A stretch of DNA of 33,337 nucleotides, taken from positions 1 through 33,337 of the forward strand of contig JACPSF010000224.1 in the NCBI GenBank assembly GCA_016193385.1. The letters are read 5' to 3'. Shown here one piece after another: positions 19,527 through 33,337 of the stretch (its first letter is position 1; each line of letters opens with the position of its first letter). The notes beneath the pieces are model-generated. The model was not told where the DNA came from and searched no databases. It saw nothing but the letters and a program-made list of their open reading frames with translations. The position numbers and the translations under genes are program-made. Source of the DNA: Deltaproteobacteria bacterium. Lineage in GTDB: Bacteria > Desulfobacterota_B > Binatia > UBA9968.

Positions 19527-20228
19527 TCAACCGCCTCTTCTGTCCCTCTTTGCCCGCCGAACGAAATAGTCCCACATGGAGTCCAACCGATGTGGCGTGT
19601 AGATCTGCTCGTATTTGAGCTTCGCCTCTTCATCGCTGGTCCACGAGGGCTCGCCGGAGGCCGTGGCGAGAAGTTGGATGCGCGCGGCCTTCTCTAGAAA
19701 GACCGCGTAGAGAGTTGCGTCCTGGATCGTTTGTCCCACTACCGTTGAGCCGTGGTTCTTCATGAGCACGCCGCGGCATTGGCCGAGGGTCTTTGCCACC
19801 TCTTTACCCCACTCGGGGGTGCGGATCAGGGCCGTGGTTTTGTCAAACAGGGGCAGGCCGTCGTGAAAGATGGAGCCTTCATGGCTGATCGGCCGAAGCG
19901 GCTGGCGTAGGGAGCCGAACGCCGTCGCGAAAGGCGGGTGAGAGTGAACGACGCAGTTGACATCGGGTCGGGCCTTGTAGATCTCCGTGTGGATGAAGAT
20001 CTCGGAGTGGCGCTCGTATTTTCCCTCGATCTTTTTTCCGTCCAAGTTGCAGACGATGATGTGCTGCGGCCGGATCTCCTCGAAGCCGAAGCTGTGGGGT
20101 TTCATTAGTATCTTATCCTGTTTCGGGATGCGTACCGAGACATGGCCGAGGATATTGTCCCAGTGGCCTTCGATAGCCAGGATGTTGCAGGAGTATGCCA
20201 AAGTTTCCTTGAGTTCTTTTAGGTTCAT
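19527..20228 (-). CDS. Class II aldolase/adducin family protein
   Basis: This 233-residue zinc-dependent aldolase-type protein is related to L-fuculose-phosphate aldolase. ATG 20228 is chosen because GGAG precedes it at six bases. A longer reading adds 14 residues from the upstream repeat array. The metal site is present: Glu76 (HSEIFIH), His95 and His97 (HSHPPF), and His159 (KNHGS). Members cleave phosphorylated or free hydroxy-acids, or decarboxylate. The gene is last in a minus-strand set after an aldehyde dehydrogenase and an aryl-CoA ligase, so a step in catabolism of an aromatic or C3/C4 fragment is plausible but unproven. Confidence 0.87.
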   Translation of the reverse strand: MNLKELKETLAYSCNILAIEGHWDNILGHVSVRIPKQDKILMKPHSFGFEEIRPQHIIVCNLDGKKIEGKYERHSEIFIHTEIYKARPDVNCVVHSHPPFATAFGSLRQPLRPISHEGSIFHDGLPLFDKTTALIRTPEWGKEVAKTLGQCRGVLMKNHGSTVVGQTIQDATLYAVFLEKAARIQLLATASGEPSWTSDEEAKLKYEQIYTPHRLDSMWDYFVRRAKRDRRGG

Positions 20229-20240
20229 TCTGTCTCCTTC

Positions 20241-20296
20241 AAGTTTTAAGTGTTGAGTTTTGAGTCGCAACTAAAAACTGGGAACTCAAAACGGAA
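20241..20296. repeat. Tandem heptamer array (8 x 7 bp) filling an operon gap
   Basis: Eight 7-bp units in register: AAGTTTT, AAGTGTT, GAGTTTT, GAGTCGC, AACTAAA, AACTGGG, AACTCAA, AACGGAA. The first four begin RAGT and the rest AAC, which makes the array partly self-complementary: GTTTTGAGT (20257-20265) pairs with ACTCAAAAC (20284-20292). It occupies nearly all of the 73-bp gap between the CoA ligase and aldolase genes. Confidence 0.8.
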
Positions 20297-20301
20297 ACCT
20301 A

Positions 20302-21840
20302 TTATTGACTGCGCAGTTTGAATCTCTGGATTTTGCCTGTCACCGTTTTGGGCAGCTCTTCGGCGAATTCGACCCAGCGGGGGTATTTATAGGGGGCCAG
20401 CTTGTTTTTGACCAGGGACTGGAGCTCGGCTTTGAGCTGGTCGCTTGGTTGGTATTCGCTTTTCAAAACGACGTAGGCCTTCGGCTTCAACAGACCATCC
20501 TGGTCTGCTTGTCCCGTAACCGCGGCCTCCAGGACCGCAGCGTGCTCGAGCAGCGTGTTTTCGATTTCGATGGGCGAGACCCACATGCCTCCGACCTTCA
20601 GCATGTCATCCGAGCGCCCGCAGTACCAGTAGTAGCCCTCTTCATCGCGGTAGTAGGTGTCTCCGGTCTTCAGCCATTCCCCCAGCATGGTTTTCTTGGT
20701 TTGCTCGTGCTTGTTCCAGTAGTAGGGAGAGTTGGCCTCCCCTTTGACCAGTAAATTTCCCACCTTTCCCACGGGGACCTCCCGGCCTTCCTCATCCACG
20801 ATCTTGGCTTCGAAGGCCGGTGTGACCTCGCCGCTGCTGCCCGCCTTTGCCCGCCCCGGTCGGTTGGCCAGAAAATCGTGTGTCGCCTCCGTGGAACCGA
20901 CCACGTCCAGAAGCTCAAGTCCGAACTTGTCCTTCCATTGATGGAACAGGGTGGGGGGGAGGGGTTCCCCGGAGGAGAGACAGATTCTGAGCGAACTGAG
21001 ATCGTATCTCTTTTCCACGCGGAGTAGCCGGGCATAAAGCGTAGGCACCGAAAAGAAAAAGGTGGGTCGGTATTTCTCGATGACCCGCAGGACCTTGTCC
21101 GGTTCGGGGCGCTCCGGCCAAAGCACGGTAGAGGCACCGAAGCGAAAAGGGAAATAGAGAGAATTGCCCAGGCCGTAGGAGAAGAACAGCTTTGAAGCAG
21201 AGAAACAGATGTCGTCTTCTCTCATTCCCAAGACCGGTTTTGCAAAGAGGTCGGTGACGGTGATCATGTCGTGTTGGAGATGGACTGCGCCTTTGGGGTT
21301 GCCGGTGCTGCCCGAGGTGTAGTTCCACATGACGACGTCGTCCCTGCTGGTGGGTTCGGCTTCCAAGATGCCAGAGGCCTTGGAAATCAGGGCGTCGTAG
21401 GAGAGAGCCTTCCCCCTGGGCTTTCCTATCACGATAACGTGCTTCAGATAGCGGGATTGGTCCCAGATCGGTTCTACCTCCGAGCGGGAAGATTCATGGA
21501 AGATTAAAACCCGGGCTCGGCTATCACGGACCAGGTAGGCGTAGTCGCGAGCCTTCATCCAGGGATTGGTGGGGATGGGGACGGCGCCAATCTTTATGGC
21601 GCCGAAAAAGCTAAAAGCAAATTCTGGAGAATCGGGCAGGACAAGAAGGACCCGTTGTTCGATCTCAACTCCCAGCTCTTTGAGGGCGTTGCCCGTCTGG
21701 TTTACCTTTTCGAAGAGATCCTGATACGTGAATTTCTCATCCTGAAAATAGATGGCGGTCTTCTTCCCGCGACCCTGGCGAATGTTCTCATCCACGAAGG
21801 TGGTGGCCGCGTTATAGATGTCGGGAAGATCGAGTTTCAT
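20302..21840 (-). CDS. Benzoate-CoA ligase family acyl-CoA synthetase
   Basis: This 512-residue adenylate-forming enzyme probably activates an aromatic acid to its CoA thioester using ATP. The A3 loop YTSGSTGNPKG lies at 174-184. VVGSTEATHDFLANRPG matches the benzoate-CoA ligase pattern of STE followed by a hydrophobic pocket. LKTGDTYYRDEEGYYWYCGRSDDMLKVGGMWVSPIEIE is the hinge and is highly typical of this family. The C-terminal catalytic lysine is Lys503 in VTGKIQR. ATG 21840, preceded by GAGGAGAG, is preferred to an in-frame start nine codons upstream inside repeat sequence. It lies between an aldehyde dehydrogenase and a class II aldolase gene on the same strand. 2-Aminobenzoate or hydroxybenzoate ligation is an equally possible specificity. 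Confidence 0.87.
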   Translation of the reverse strand: MKLDLPDIYNAATTFVDENIRQGRGKKTAIYFQDEKFTYQDLFEKVNQTGNALKELGVEIEQRVLLVLPDSPEFAFSFFGAIKIGAVPIPTNPWMKARDYAYLVRDSRARVLIFHESSRSEVEPIWDQSRYLKHVIVIGKPRGKALSYDALISKASGILEAEPTSRDDVVMWNYTSGSTGNPKGAVHLQHDMITVTDLFAKPVLGMREDDICFSASKLFFSYGLGNSLYFPFRFGASTVLWPERPEPDKVLRVIEKYRPTFFFSVPTLYARLLRVEKRYDLSSLRICLSSGEPLPPTLFHQWKDKFGLELLDVVGSTEATHDFLANRPGRAKAGSSGEVTPAFEAKIVDEEGREVPVGKVGNLLVKGEANSPYYWNKHEQTKKTMLGEWLKTGDTYYRDEEGYYWYCGRSDDMLKVGGMWVSPIEIENTLLEHAAVLEAAVTGQADQDGLLKPKAYVVLKSEYQPSDQLKAELQSLVKNKLAPYKYPRWVEFAEELPKTVTGKIQRFKLRSQ

Positions 21841-21862
21841 CTCTCCTCGCTTCGCTCGGAAT

Positions 21863-21918
21863 CTCAAATCTCAGATCTCAAATTTCAAATCGGAGATATG
21901 AGATGTGCAATTTGAGAT
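21863..21918. repeat. Tandem heptamer array (8 x 7 bp) in the next operon gap
   Basis: Eight 7-bp units in register: CTCAAAT, CTCAGAT, CTCAAAT, TTCAAAT, CGGAGAT, ATGAGAT, GTGCAAT, TTGAGAT. Every unit ends in AT, and the early units are complementary to the late ones (ATCTCAAA against TTTGAGAT). It fills much of the 89-bp gap between the aldehyde dehydrogenase and CoA ligase genes. It shares period and design with the array at 20241-20296 but uses different words. Confidence 0.8.
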
Positions 21919-21929
21919 CTCGGAGGCGG

Positions 21930-23402
21930 TTATTCGCCTCCGGTCGCCTCCGAGTGAGTCTCGGTGGCGATGACCACGGATTTCGACTCCGTATAGTGCT
22001 CGATCGCCTCCTCGCCATGCTCCTTGCCGATGCCGCTCTGCTTGACTCCACCGAAAGGCAGCTCGTCATAGATGATCTGCGCCGAGTTGATCCAGGTGTA
22101 GCCGGATTCGATATGCTCCGCAGCGAACATTGCTTTGTTGATGTCTCGTGTCCAGACGGACGAGCCCAGACCGAAGATCGAGTTATTAGCCTGCTTGATG
22201 CCCTCTTCCAGGTCCTTGACTCTGACGATCGGAAGGGCTGGCCCGAAAACTTCCTCTTTAAGCATCCTTGATTGAGGATCAACGTCGGTCACGAGAGTCG
22301 GCATCAGATAAAAGCCTTTATCGTATTCTCCGCCTTTGGGCCGCTCGGCGCCGCAGAGGACCTTCGCCCCGCGCTTAACCGCGTCCTCGACCTGTTCTTC
22401 GACCTCTTTTCGCTGGTCAGCAGTATGGAGGGGACCCATGATAGTGTCCGGCTTGAGTCCGTTGCCGATTCTCAGCTTTTTAACCTTGTCTACAAGCTTC
22501 TCGATGAATACCTCGGCAATCCTGTCGGCGAGATAAAGTCTCTTAACGGCCAGACAGGCCTGGCCGCAGTTGAAGAAGCGCCCGACGGAAGCGGCGCTCA
22601 CCGCCCGGTCGAGATCGGCGTCGTCGCAGACGATCATAGGATCGCTGCCGCCCAATTCCAGGGTCACGTGTTTGAAATCCTTGGCGGCGGCCTGCATTAC
22701 ACGCCTGCCCGTGTCGGTTGCGCCGGTAAAGCCGATCTTACGTACCGTGGGATTGACGAGCAGCTCTTCGCCCACGACGCTTCCCGGCCCGGTGACGACG
22801 TTGATAACTCCCTTTGGACCCCCTCCGGCCTGAATCGCCTTGTCGATTAACTCGCAGCAGCGAATGGCTGTTAGTGGCGTCGTCCCGGCAGGCTTTACCA
22901 CGACCGTGTTGCCAGCTAAAAGGGCGGGGCCGAGCTTGTTGCCCATGAGCGAAACCGGGAAATTCCACGGCACGATCGCGCCGCAGACGCCTAGGGGCTT
23001 GCGCAGAACGATGCCATGGCGGCCGTTGTCCAGCACCACGGCCGCCGTGCGCAGGCTCTTGGCCATGCCGCCGTAGTGATCCAGCGTGTGCACGAAGCGG
23101 CGGATTTCCATAATCGACTCGCGGATCGGTTTTCCCTGCTCGCGCGTGAGCAGGGTTGCCAGCTCCTTTTCCTGCTCAAGAATGAGCCTACACGCCGCCA
23201 GCAGGATCCCCCCGCGCTTGGCGGGCGCCATTTCCGACCATTTTTTTAGCGCCCCGGCGGCTACATTGATAGCGCGGCGGACATCGTTGACCGTGCCCTT
23301 CGGGACTGTGTCGACGGGCTCTTCGGTTGCGGGATTGCGGATCTGGGAGGTTTCGCCGCTCTCAGAGTCGCAGAACTCACCCGCGATAAAAAACTGCGCC
23401 AT
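21930..23402 (-). CDS. NAD(P)-dependent aldehyde dehydrogenase
   Basis: This 490-residue enzyme oxidises an aldehyde to the acid. The motifs are complete: PWNFPVSLMGNKLGPALLAGNTVVVKPA with Asn147 and Lys170, FTGATDTGRRVM, general base Glu249 in LELGGSDP, and the nucleophile Cys283 in NCGQACLAVKR. The C-terminal EVFGPALPIVRVKDLEEGIKQANNSIFGLGSSVWTRD and PFGGVKQSGIGKEHG are family-typical. ATG 23402 has GGAGG seven bases upstream. It is the first gene of the minus-strand operon. With the aryl-CoA ligase it would make an aldehyde to acid to acyl-CoA route, for instance benzaldehyde to benzoyl-CoA, which is inference. Succinate-semialdehyde dehydrogenase is the closest alternative label. Confidence 0.93.
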   Translation of the reverse strand: MAQFFIAGEFCDSESGETSQIRNPATEEPVDTVPKGTVNDVRRAINVAAGALKKWSEMAPAKRGGILLAACRLILEQEKELATLLTREQGKPIRESIMEIRRFVHTLDHYGGMAKSLRTAAVVLDNGRHGIVLRKPLGVCGAIVPWNFPVSLMGNKLGPALLAGNTVVVKPAGTTPLTAIRCCELIDKAIQAGGGPKGVINVVTGPGSVVGEELLVNPTVRKIGFTGATDTGRRVMQAAAKDFKHVTLELGGSDPMIVCDDADLDRAVSAASVGRFFNCGQACLAVKRLYLADRIAEVFIEKLVDKVKKLRIGNGLKPDTIMGPLHTADQRKEVEEQVEDAVKRGAKVLCGAERPKGGEYDKGFYLMPTLVTDVDPQSRMLKEEVFGPALPIVRVKDLEEGIKQANNSIFGLGSSVWTRDINKAMFAAEHIESGYTWINSAQIIYDELPFGGVKQSGIGKEHGEEAIEHYTESKSVVIATETHSEATGGE

Positions 23403-31052: not shown

Positions 31053-31594
31053 TGGTCGAAGGAAGGTTAAGTCGCAGATACGCGAGGGCCCTTTTCCAGC
31101 TGGCCCTTGAAGAGGCGCGGGAGGCAGAGGTGGGCCAGGAAATCAGCCGCTATGCCGAGGTCTACACGACGTCGGCACTTATCCGGGTGGTTAGCAATCG
31201 CGCCCTGGCGGCACGGGCGCGGAAGAATGTGGTGATCGAGGTCGCCCGGTCCGTTGGCCTTTCCTCCCTCATGATCCATTTCTTATCCCTCCTGGTGGAC
31301 CGGGATCGCGTGGGCCTTCTTCCCTCGATCGCTTCGCGTTATCGGCGGTTGCTGGACGAGGCAAAGGGTCGAGTCGAGGCCCGGGTCGTCGCAGCGGCCC
31401 TGCTAAGTCGGGATATGATGGAGAGGGTTCGTGTAGCGCTCCAGAGCATCTCCGGCAAGGAAGTGATCCTGCACGAAGAGACTGATCTAGGGCTCATCGG
31501 GGGGGTGCGGATCGAGTTGGAAGGCAGAGTCTACGATGGCAGCGTGCGCACCCAACTGGAAAAAATGAAGCAGCGCATTGAGCGCGGGTACTGA
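31052..31594 (+). CDS. atpH: ATP synthase F1 subunit delta
   Basis: This 180-residue protein caps the F1 head and binds the b stalk. The family pattern is complete: [18 protein letters not shown] at the N-terminus, [39 protein letters not shown] in the middle, and [32 protein letters not shown] at the end. ATG 31052 overlaps the atpF stop. A TTG one codon earlier is also open. It is followed after 64 bp by atpA, the gap holding two copies of CCTGAGCTC (31604-31612 and 31620-31628). Confidence 0.95.
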
Positions 31595-31658
31595 AGGCTT
31601 CGACCTGAGCTCCCCTCGGCCTGAGCTCGGGACGAAGGCAGCCGAAGGAGGCAGAAGG

Positions 31659-33167
31659 ATGGAGATTGGCACAGCGGAAATCAGCCGGATCATTAAGGAG
31701 CAGATCCGGGATTATGACAAGGCGGTGGAGGTTCAGGAGGTCGGGACCGTCCTGTCCACTGGCGACGGCATCGCCCGCATCTACGGGCTTGACCGCGTGG
31801 CTGCGGGGGAGCTGCTGGAGTTTCCCCACGGGATCTACGGCGTGGCGCTGAACCTCGAGGAAGACAACGTCGGCGCCGCTCTCTTCGGCGAGACGCATCT
31901 CATCGGAGAGGGAGATACGGTCAAGCGCACGGGTCGGATTGCCGAGGTGGCAGTCGGGGAAGCCCTGGTCGGCCGGGTGGTGAACGCCTTGGGCGAGCCG
32001 ATCGACGGCCGCGGGCCCATCGAGATCAAGGAGAGAAGGAGGATCGAGGTCAAGGCCCCAGGGATCATAGCGCGACAGCCCGTCAAAGAACCGCTTCAAA
32101 CCGGGCTCAAAGCGATCGACGCGATGATTCCCATCGGCCGGGGCCAGCGCGAGCTGATCATCGGCGACCGGCAGACGGGCAAGACCGCGCTGGTCATCGA
32201 CACCATCATCAACCAGAAAGGCGGCAATGTCACCTGCATCTATGTCGCCATCGGACAGAAGCGCTCCACGGTCGCGCAAGTCGTGGATCGGCTGCGGCGG
32301 GACGGTTCCATGGAGTATACGATCGTCGTCTCCGCCACGGCCGCCGAATCGGCGCCGCTGCAGTTCATCGCTCCCTATACCGGCTGCACCATGGGAGAGC
32401 ACATCCGCGACCGCGGCGGCCATGCCCTAGTCATCTACGATGATCTCTCCAAGCATGCCGTGGCCTACCGGCAGCTCTCGCTGCTGCTGCGCCGTCCGCC
32501 GGGCCGGGAGGCGTTCCCGGGAGACGTTTTCTACCTCCACTCGCGCCTGCTCGAGCGCGCGGCCAAACTGAGCGATGCCCGCGGCGGCGGTTCGCTCACG
32601 GCCCTTCCCATCATCGAGACCCAGGCAGGCGACGTCTCGGCTTACATCCCCACGAATGTGATCTCGATCACCGATGGGCAGATCTATCTCGAAAGCGATC
32701 TCTTTTACTCCGGCGTGCGGCCGGCGATCAACGTAGGCCTTTCAGTCTCGCGCGTCGGGGGCGCCGCCCAGATTAAGGCGATGAAGCAGGTGGCGGGAAG
32801 TCTCCGCTTGGACCTCGCCCAATACCGGGAGATGGCGGCCTTTGCCCAATTCGGCTCCGACCTGGACGCGACCACCCAGCGCCAGATCGCCCGGGGAAGT
32901 CGCCTGGTGGAGATCCTCAAGCAGGATCAATATGCGCCGTTGACCGTGGCGAAGCAGATCCTGATCATCTATGCCGGGACCAACGGCTTTGTAGATCATC
33001 TCCCGGTCGGCGCGCTCAAGAAGTACGAGCGCGAGCTCTATGCCTTCGTTGAGTCCAGTTATCCCGATCTGCTTCCGGAAATCCTCAAAAAGCGTGAGCT
33101 GGATGAGGAGCTGCGCGGCAAGATCAAAAAAATCTTAGAGGAATTTAACTCGAGCTTTAAGGAATAG
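31659..33167 (+). CDS. atpA: ATP synthase F1 subunit alpha
   Basis: This is the 502-residue non-catalytic nucleotide-binding subunit of the F1 head. ATG 31659 has AAGGAGG in front and gives the usual start [17 protein letters not shown] longer frame from 31578 adds 27 unrelated residues. The P-loop GDRQTGKT lies at 169-176 with Lys175, the same number as in E. coli. [62 protein letters not shown] and the arginine-finger region [14 protein letters not shown] are all present. It should assemble with beta, gamma, delta and epsilon. The genes for beta and epsilon lie beyond the window. Confidence 0.98.
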
Positions 33168-33185
33168 GACCGAGGACTGAACGAA

Positions 33186-33239
33186 TTGAACTACTTGAAC
33201 CGTTTAAACAGTTTAAATCGTTCAAGCCGTTCAAAGTGT
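33186..33239. repeat. Tandem nonamer array (6 x 9 bp) between atpA and atpG
   Basis: Six 9-bp units in register: TTGAACTAC, TTGAACCGT, TTAAACAGT, TTAAATCGT, TCAAGCCGT, TCAAAGTGT. The consensus is TYRAAVCGT-like. The array fills over half of the 92-bp gap between atpA and atpG. Like the heptamer arrays at 20241 and 21863, it lies inside an operon, but the period is 9. Confidence 0.78.
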
Positions 33240-33259
33240 CTATGCAGCCCAACTGAGCC

Positions 33260-33337
33260 ATGGCAACTTTAAAGGCAATACGCAAACGGATCGTTTCGAT
33301 CCGCAACACGCAGCAGATCACCAAGGCGATGAAGATG
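33260..33337 (+). CDS. atpG: ATP synthase F1 subunit gamma, 3' end outside window
   Basis: Only the first 26 codons are present. They read MATLKAIRKRIVSIRNTQQI followed by TKAMKM, the highly conserved N-terminal helix of the rotor shaft that sits in the centre of F1. ATG 33260 follows atpA after 92 bp. No strong Shine-Dalgarno is visible, and the nonamer array lies just upstream. The gene order atpF'-F-H-A-G predicts atpD and atpC downstream. Confidence 0.93.
   Translation, partial: MATLKAIRKRIVSIRNTQQITKAMKM

Follow-up and report, generated by a model that had tools for sequence, protein, structure and literature searches.

The window analysed here is the whole stretch of 33,337 nt of contig JACPSF010000224.1 from a Deltaproteobacteria bacterium (GTDB lineage Desulfobacterota_B; Binatia; UBA9968; assembly GCA_016193385.1). 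It contains genes for an aldehyde dehydrogenase, a CoA ligase and an aldolase on one strand and the ATP synthase genes atpA and atpG on the other, and three of the gaps between these genes are occupied by arrays of short tandem words (Table 1). Array 1 is flanked by the stop codon of the CoA-ligase gene and the start codon of the aldolase gene, and the 73-nt gap (20229-20301) consists of the array, the Shine-Dalgarno side at 20229-20240 and five bases beside the ligase stop. Its units, AAGTTTT, AAGTGTT, GAGTTTT, GAGTCGC, AACTAAA, AACTGGG, AACTCAA and AACGGAA, keep a single strict register with 30 of 49 lag-7 matches; the first half is composed of RAGT words and the second of AACT or AACG words. 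An earlier note, made from the sequence alone, had described eight 7-bp units in strict register between the two genes, and this description is borne out: when the entire gap was dinucleotide-shuffled 3000 times, no shuffle reached the best periodicity score of the array (periods 5 to 12). It had further proposed that the GAGT-type half and the AACT-type half allow the RNA to fold on itself. The RNA of the gap indeed folds better than its shuffles (z -2.4), and the best ungapped hairpin possesses an arm of 23 positions, mismatches counted, and a loop of 4 nt. TRF detects the array in part only (3.4 copies, score 34).

Table 1. Arrays and neighbouring features discussed in the text; positions are those of the window.
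Feature	Positions	Strand	Basis
Array 1: eight heptads, an arm of RAGT words followed by one of AACT words	20241..20296	-	sequence, periodicity, fold
Aldolase gene leader with AAGGAG, from array 1 to the start codon at 20228	20229..20240	-	sequence reading
Class II aldolase/adducin-type gene (Aldolase_II), downstream of array 1	19527..20228	-	PF00596
AMP-binding CoA-ligase-type gene; stop codon 20302-20304 adjoins array 1	20302..21840	-	PF00501, PF13193
Array 2, the core of a dispersed element: in-register heptads, first RATCTCA and after them RATNTGA	21863..21918	-	sequence, element alignment
Conserved flank of the array-2 dispersed element, TCCTCGCTTCGCTCGG	21844..21859	+	sequence, aligned copies
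Aldehyde dehydrogenase gene (Aldedh); stop codon 11 nt from array 2	21930..23402	-	PF00171
Array 3, in the atpA-atpG gap: nonamers whose TTGAACNNN-type arm precedes an arm of the GTTCAANNN type	33186..33239	+	sequence, fold
ATP synthase alpha gene (atpA), upstream of array 3; start at 31659 in the analysis's own gene call	31578..33167	+	PF00006

The two sister arrays to which the earlier note had attributed the same period are both real; array 2 has period 7 as stated (34/49 lag-7 matches), whereas array 3 has period 9 (32/45 matches), and in either case none of 3000 shuffles was as periodic. The RNA of their gaps also folds better than shuffled sequence (z -2.3 for array 2 and -2.4 for array 3). 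The atpA-atpG gap extends from 33168 to 33259, with the start of atpG placed by eye at 33260. On the mRNA strand, the conserved flank of array 2 ends directly upstream of the ligase start, so that it is a possible candidate for the Shine-Dalgarno sequence of the ligase gene. No match to Rfam was found in the window at the gathering threshold.

The wider occurrence of such arrays was surveyed in stretches of five genomes of the same family (f1), namely G001 (260 kb), G006 (319 kb), G008 (131 kb), G017 (216 kb) and G018 (336 kb), in the window, and in 400 kb of G029, which belongs to another family (f3) of the same order. Genes were called with an own hexamer-based script, and gaps of 25 to 600 bp were scored for lag-p self-similarity. 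Most of the f1 stretches are contig starts; L264 (G008), L280 (G017), L053 (G018) and the window were not chosen blind, as they contain the operon of interest and regions where the presence of arrays was known or had been sought beforehand, and they are included in the 718 gaps. At the lower of two thresholds, period-7 arrays were present in 90 of these 718 gaps, compared with 1.4 summed over the dinucleotide-shuffled sets. The expectation of the earlier note that 7-bp periodicity is enriched in other gaps was thus confirmed in the nearest genome compared, G001, which is 98% identical to the window over the atp region (22/144 gaps vs 0.2 shuffled), and it also held in G006 (31/186), G008 (9/73), G017 (18/121) and G018 (8/176); the window contributes 2/18, and the shuffled sets of the f1 genomes and the window yielded 0.0 to 0.5 period-7 gaps each. 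With 3/240 gaps vs 1.5 in shuffled sequence, G029 lacks the enrichment seen in f1.

Other periods are enriched to a lesser extent or in some genomes only. Period 9 was found in 10/121 gaps of G017 vs 0.3 and in 6/186 gaps of G006 vs 0.7 in shuffled sequence, and G006 additionally shows period 6 (7/186 vs 0.1); in the 718 gaps, periods 8, 10, 11 and 12 were counted 8, 4, 2 and 6 times vs 1.9, 1.5, 1.4 and 1.6 after shuffling. At the higher threshold, 74 arrays remain, 69 of period 7 and five of period 9. Strong period-7 arrays reach a density of 627 per Mb of gap vs 3.1 per Mb of coding DNA, whereas strong period-9 arrays are nearly as dense in coding DNA (36.7 per Mb) as in gaps (45.5 per Mb), which makes the case for nonamers weaker. 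The evidence is therefore strong for period 7 and weaker for period 9.

Most of these arrays are self-complementary. An ungapped hairpin exceeds shuffled sequence (z > 2) in 53 of the 69 strong period-7 arrays, with a median z of 5.4, and the z value is not above 2 in the remaining 16. RNAfold gives a median z of -2.3 for the 74 arrays, 54% of which are below -2; the 60 gaps without an array have a median of -0.4, and 25% of them are below -2. For the hairpins with period 7 or 9, 56 in all, the medians are 23 positions for the arm length, 15 nt for the loop and 0.34 for the GC content of the arm. Intrinsic terminators, that is, G+C-rich hairpins followed by a T run, were considered and rejected, because TTTT follows within 12 nt downstream in only three of the 56 hairpins and the arms are poor in G+C. 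An origin of one arm as a snap-back copy of the other was likewise rejected, since the arms correspond word by word but scarcely unit by unit: the observed order of units pairs only 0.9 bp per hairpin better than permuted units, and the choice of register favours the observed order. In the same 56 hairpins, G exceeds C in the 5' arm in 39 cases and C exceeds G in 14, a bias for which the mechanism favoured below does not account; stop codons are not significantly more frequent in the 5' arm (23 vs 15). The words themselves are diverse, with 46 consensus strings among the 69 period-7 arrays, part of which are near variants of one another. The suggestion of a genome-wide class that shares its design and not its sequence is thus right in that design is shared more than sequence; however, sequence is common within a word family, and array 2 is a copy of a dispersed repeat.

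The arrays occur in 62/503 co-directional, 7/89 convergent and 5/126 divergent gaps, and the difference between co-directional and divergent gaps is significant (p = 0.0055). Of the 62 co-directional arrays, 51 have their upstream end at most 15 nt from the stop codon before them vs 39.1 expected under uniform placement (z 4.6); where the gap leaves at least 40 nt to spare (19 gaps), eight arrays are within 15 nt of the stop vs 3.3 expected, and four are within 15 nt of the start. When 15 nt are granted to the Shine-Dalgarno sequence on the start side, the asymmetry between stop and start in co-directional gaps vanishes (23 vs 28). All seven arrays in convergent gaps are located within 3 nt of a stop codon vs 0.41 expected. 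The idea that the arrays belong specifically inside operons needs some correction: they are found close to stop codons, also where genes converge, and less often in divergent gaps. In 12 of the 69 arrays the periodicity extends at least 7 nt into the coding end, and in L325 an array, judged by eye, appears to code for a gene's final residues together with its stop codon.

Orthologous gaps show how the arrays change over time. In the gap behind atpA, an array scoring at least 9 is present in 10 of 19 family loci among the matches listed, and six words can be distinguished by eye: the nonamer (G001, G003 and the window), TAGTTAT (G015, G020), NATGAGT (G008), TTTCGAG (G018, G011, G017), GGCAAAG (G009) and CCAGTTN (G021). 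Four of these words have AGT in common and may have arisen from each other by drift, while the nonamer and GGCAAAG are plainly different. The gap is absent from G006, G012 and G013, and in G025 (L130) another palindrome-like sequence, beginning TCATCCTGAGCG, stands in place of a heptad array. The gap between the ligase and aldehyde dehydrogenase genes contains arrays in 8/15 genomes, with the words RATCTCA, GAGGATN, AAAAGGY or an ATTCCAG-like word, and the gap between the aldolase and ligase genes in 6/14 genomes. Even within one genus (g6), G008, G015 and G020/G023 carry three different words in one orthologous gap. Occupancy of orthologous gaps is uneven, with 8/15, 8/13, 6/14 and 6/9 in some and 0/14 in two others; this unevenness was matched by none of 2000 within-genome permutations, a figure that takes relatives as independent and is inflated by shared descent, and that scores gene pairs with a short gap or an overlap as unoccupied. 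The table of orthologous gaps was compiled without the window's own atpG gap.

Among 80 cross-genus pairs of orthologous arrays, 27 differ in period. For the 53 pairs with the same period, word similarity exceeds the 95th percentile of 347 non-orthologous pairs in six cases and stays below it in 47; the mean similarity is 0.554 for orthologous vs 0.499 for non-orthologous pairs, and a value as high was obtained in four of 1000 permutations. Because of this slight excess, part of the difference between words may reflect drift of one word rather than replacement. Replacement of words prevails, and retention or drift contributes.

The residual similarity at orthologous gaps is also what would be expected if the arrays were neutral heptamer microsatellites, which grow because polymerases slip preferentially by 7 bp, acquire their second arm by template switching at quasi-palindromes, drift in their words and survive only where they are harmless, namely behind stop codons and before Shine-Dalgarno sequences. 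The arrays of G020 and G023, which differ by one 7-nt unit and three substitutions, are in line with slippage by single units, and heptameric repeats are reported to be over-represented among simple repeats in many bacteria, for which slippage related to the polymerase footprint is put forward in the accessible part of PMC4692102. However, neutral survival leaves unexplained why seven of seven convergent arrays hug a stop codon, and in 12 of 12 pairs that share a word, the gap is more alike than fourfold degenerate sites (0.87 vs 0.57 for G003 and G001), although these pairs and their words were judged by eye and the selection is biased to alike pairs, diverged ones being unrecognisable. Neutral microsatellites are considered a serious but rather unlikely explanation.

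Array 2 belongs to a dispersed element, whose common form starts with TCCTCGCTTCGCTCGG, continues with about eight or nine heptads and ends with CCCGAAGGG. It is present in 20 of 23 f1 genomes and in the single genome searched from a sister family (f2); none was found in nine f3 genomes and six genomes of other families of the class, that is, in none of these 15 among the 39 genomes searched. In G003, GGTCCTCGCT of the element has been kept in a gap of 20 nt and looks like a deletion remnant. Two copies in G006 (L031, L032) are, as judged by eye, embedded in a longer palindrome that is GC-rich and measures about 150 bp. In an alignment of 18 copies, the dinucleotides AT and CA/TG are repeated with a spacing of 7 bp and are almost all invariant, while the positions in between vary. 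RNAalifold pairs the two arms; covariation was rejected as proof of the RNA fold, as a two-sided change that keeps the pair was found in only one of 23 pairs of these copies.

Invariant word positions with little covariation would suit a protein-binding word as well. It is conceivable that the arrays are DNA- or RNA-binding platforms, in which the heptad word would be the site of a sequence-specific protein and different words would recruit different proteins; for the tandem pairs of Geobacter metallireducens, binding of an IHF/HU-type protein is proposed in the accessible part of PMC2700814. The number of consensus strings would then require many proteins, even with near variants among them, different words occupy the same gap in related genomes, and arrays are scarce in divergent gaps, where promoters lie. 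Binding platforms are judged distinctly improbable as an explanation.

The many places at which G003 carries array-2 copies of 93-100% identity speak for a mobile element, and it could be assumed that the arrays are of the REP/MITE type, moved by REP-associated tyrosine transposases and without a role for the host. Genes with the Y1_Tnp domain are present in 35/39 relatives, including all 23 family genomes; when two of the encoded proteins were tested, one passed the NCBIfam cut-off for REP-associated tyrosine transposases and the other fell short of it. Two array-2 copies of G008 are located about 1.5 kb from REP-transposase-like genes; however, this vicinity is not significant by a rough estimate, and besides the element, the two neighbourhoods share only a piece of 71-72 bp just upstream of both transposase genes (L324:1970-2040 and L325:1923-1994). 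This piece is 86% identical between the two, forms a CCCC-GGGG hairpin, is not heptad-like, was found in no other locus examined, and looks like the better candidate for a cognate transposase site. The neighbourhood in G008 was therefore rejected as support for a link between the array-2 element and the RAYT genes, since the piece shared beside the transposase genes is another hairpin. Both genes have DnaA-like tails, and in L325 a nonamer array lies beside the gene as well. Moreover, Y1_Tnp genes are found in 8/9 f3 genomes, yet G029, the one surveyed f3 member, is without arrays. The hairpin of REP/BIME elements is accompanied by a tag of four conserved nucleotides, GTAG or CGTC. In the 12 nt on the 5' side of the arrays, on either strand, GTAG was found in seven of 74 cases and CGTC in six, so that there is no common tag. 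Mobile elements without a host role are regarded as an improbable explanation.

Several known systems resemble the arrays in part. The earlier note had named the STRR heptamers of cyanobacteria as the nearest analogy. Their traits, tandem direct heptamers in intergenic regions and in many copies, are found in the family arrays as well, by design only and with the inverted arms as an addition; the analogy holds, but closer counterparts exist. One is the P6b stem of the group I intron of trnL (tRNA-Leu UAA) in Nostoc, which, according to the accessible text of PMC4476775, always consists of heptads, either Class I (TDNGATT) or Class II (NNTGAGT). In Nostoc and Calothrix, a switch from one class to the other has taken place repeatedly at this site, in lineages independent of each other, and repeats are gained or lost in sevens (PMC4476775, in part). 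Tandem heptads whose complementary arms form a stem are common to both systems. The units TTTGAGT and GTTGAGT of array 1 fit the Class II word as given there, AATCTCA of array 2 fits Class I on the other strand while GATCTCA does not, and array 3 fits neither class. As far as that text goes, P6b is a single intron stem with two words, whereas the family arrays occupy many intergenic sites near stop codons with many words and without an intron; those of the window lie between protein genes and not in a tRNA group I intron.

A second counterpart is found in Geobacter metallireducens, for which putative global regulator sites and H4 elements are described as intergenic tandem 7- or 8-mers with the consensus words GTTGCTYN, TCTCCGTS, MTYCTGA and GGGACCG (PMC2700814, accessible part). 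These are likewise multicopy, the regulator sites are mostly inverted pairs, and there are several word classes per genome; the classes are, however, few and fixed (24, 21 and 8 pairs or places are named in the text), and placement at stop codons or exchange of words at orthologous sites is not described in the accessible part. By position, REP elements are a closer counterpart too: the passages available from PMC12306157 place some of them within 15 nt of stop codons and cite ribosome stalling there. Like them, the family arrays are dispersed intergenic hairpins, some of them at most 15 nt from a stop codon, and the REP/BIME trait of an intergenic, multicopy, imperfect palindrome applies to them; tandem arrays are not described for REP stems in those passages. 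The heptamers GGGAATC/GGGGAYT of Xanthomonas and Nostoc and TAACTGA of Beggiatoaceae (PMC4692102 and PMC4679880, in part) are also intergenic and tandem, a few of them inverted, but in the accessible texts they comprise one main word per group, are mostly direct, and TAACTGA is found near start codons. Conserved repeats and hairpins are further reported for intergenic regions of the Nostoc hyp operon (PMC2408588, accessible part). In the literature searched, mostly outside subscription journals, no description was found of hairpins that abut stop codons and use many exchangeable heptad words.

Taken together, the arrays are enriched in gaps, mostly self-complementary, close to stop codons, built of many words and largely turned over at orthologous sites, and array 2 is dispersed in copies that are nearly identical. 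It is because of this position, self-complementarity, word diversity and turnover that a mechanism based on an mRNA hairpin is favoured: array 1 would be a member of a lineage-specific group of REP-like intergenic hairpin repeats that act at the 3' end of the upstream gene's mRNA, an account with about an even chance of being correct. The arms, tandem 7-mers and sometimes 9-mers, would pair in the mRNA behind the stop codon, and the resulting hairpin may mark the upstream reading frame's 3' end and protect it against 3'-to-5' exonucleases, slow ribosomes at the stop codon, or both. Either effect is proposed to separate the expression of neighbouring genes. The words would spread when entire elements are copied, and slippage would lengthen or shorten them by one unit per step. 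It is further proposed that the choice of word counts for less than fold and position, which would let one word take the place of another.

A more far-reaching version would be that a dedicated process of the family builds or exchanges period-7 hairpins immediately after stop codons with little regard to the word, whereby a site would inherit the design and have its sequence swapped; the same process would act on the trnL stem of Nostoc, the word would be free, and selection would concern only periodic self-complementarity at the stop codon. This version is rated quite unlikely. If design is indeed kept more than sequence, sequence-based searches for repeats and RNA families would miss many such elements. 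The Nostoc trnL stem, the paired sites of Geobacter, the excess of heptamers in bacteria and the REP elements at stop codons would then be linked, and two questions would become testable, namely why the period is seven and which role a hairpin plays behind a stop codon.

The word of array 2 is not confined to the family. A scan for three units of RATCTCA yielded at least 119 stretches across many phyla; among the matches listed, L163 from Deltaproteobacteria bacterium nzgw178 carries the flank of the array-2 element. Of the matches listed from other phyla, 19 were too near to the end of the locus and were dropped, and 100 were analysed with crude gene calls. Inverted words were nearby in only 16 of these 100, and 38 lie inside and 62 outside long open reading frames, a pattern that again fits neutral microsatellites. 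By the same crude gene calls, 25 of 64 distances to a stop codon and 16 of 55 distances to a start codon are at most 15 nt. In L149, RATCTCA heptads within a long open reading frame can be read by eye as an SQISNLK-type peptide near the start of the gene. The arrays of L169, L222 and L237 follow a similar stretch ending in an APEH-like motif, in L169 and L222 within called open reading frames, as if they occupied one homologous site of one protein, presumably leucyl-tRNA synthetase. Six further loci (L142, L143, L176, L180, L183 and L233), mostly from named cyanobacteria, have, as judged by eye, a common right flank like AATCGRNTGAC, which suggests a defined element with a variable heptad core.
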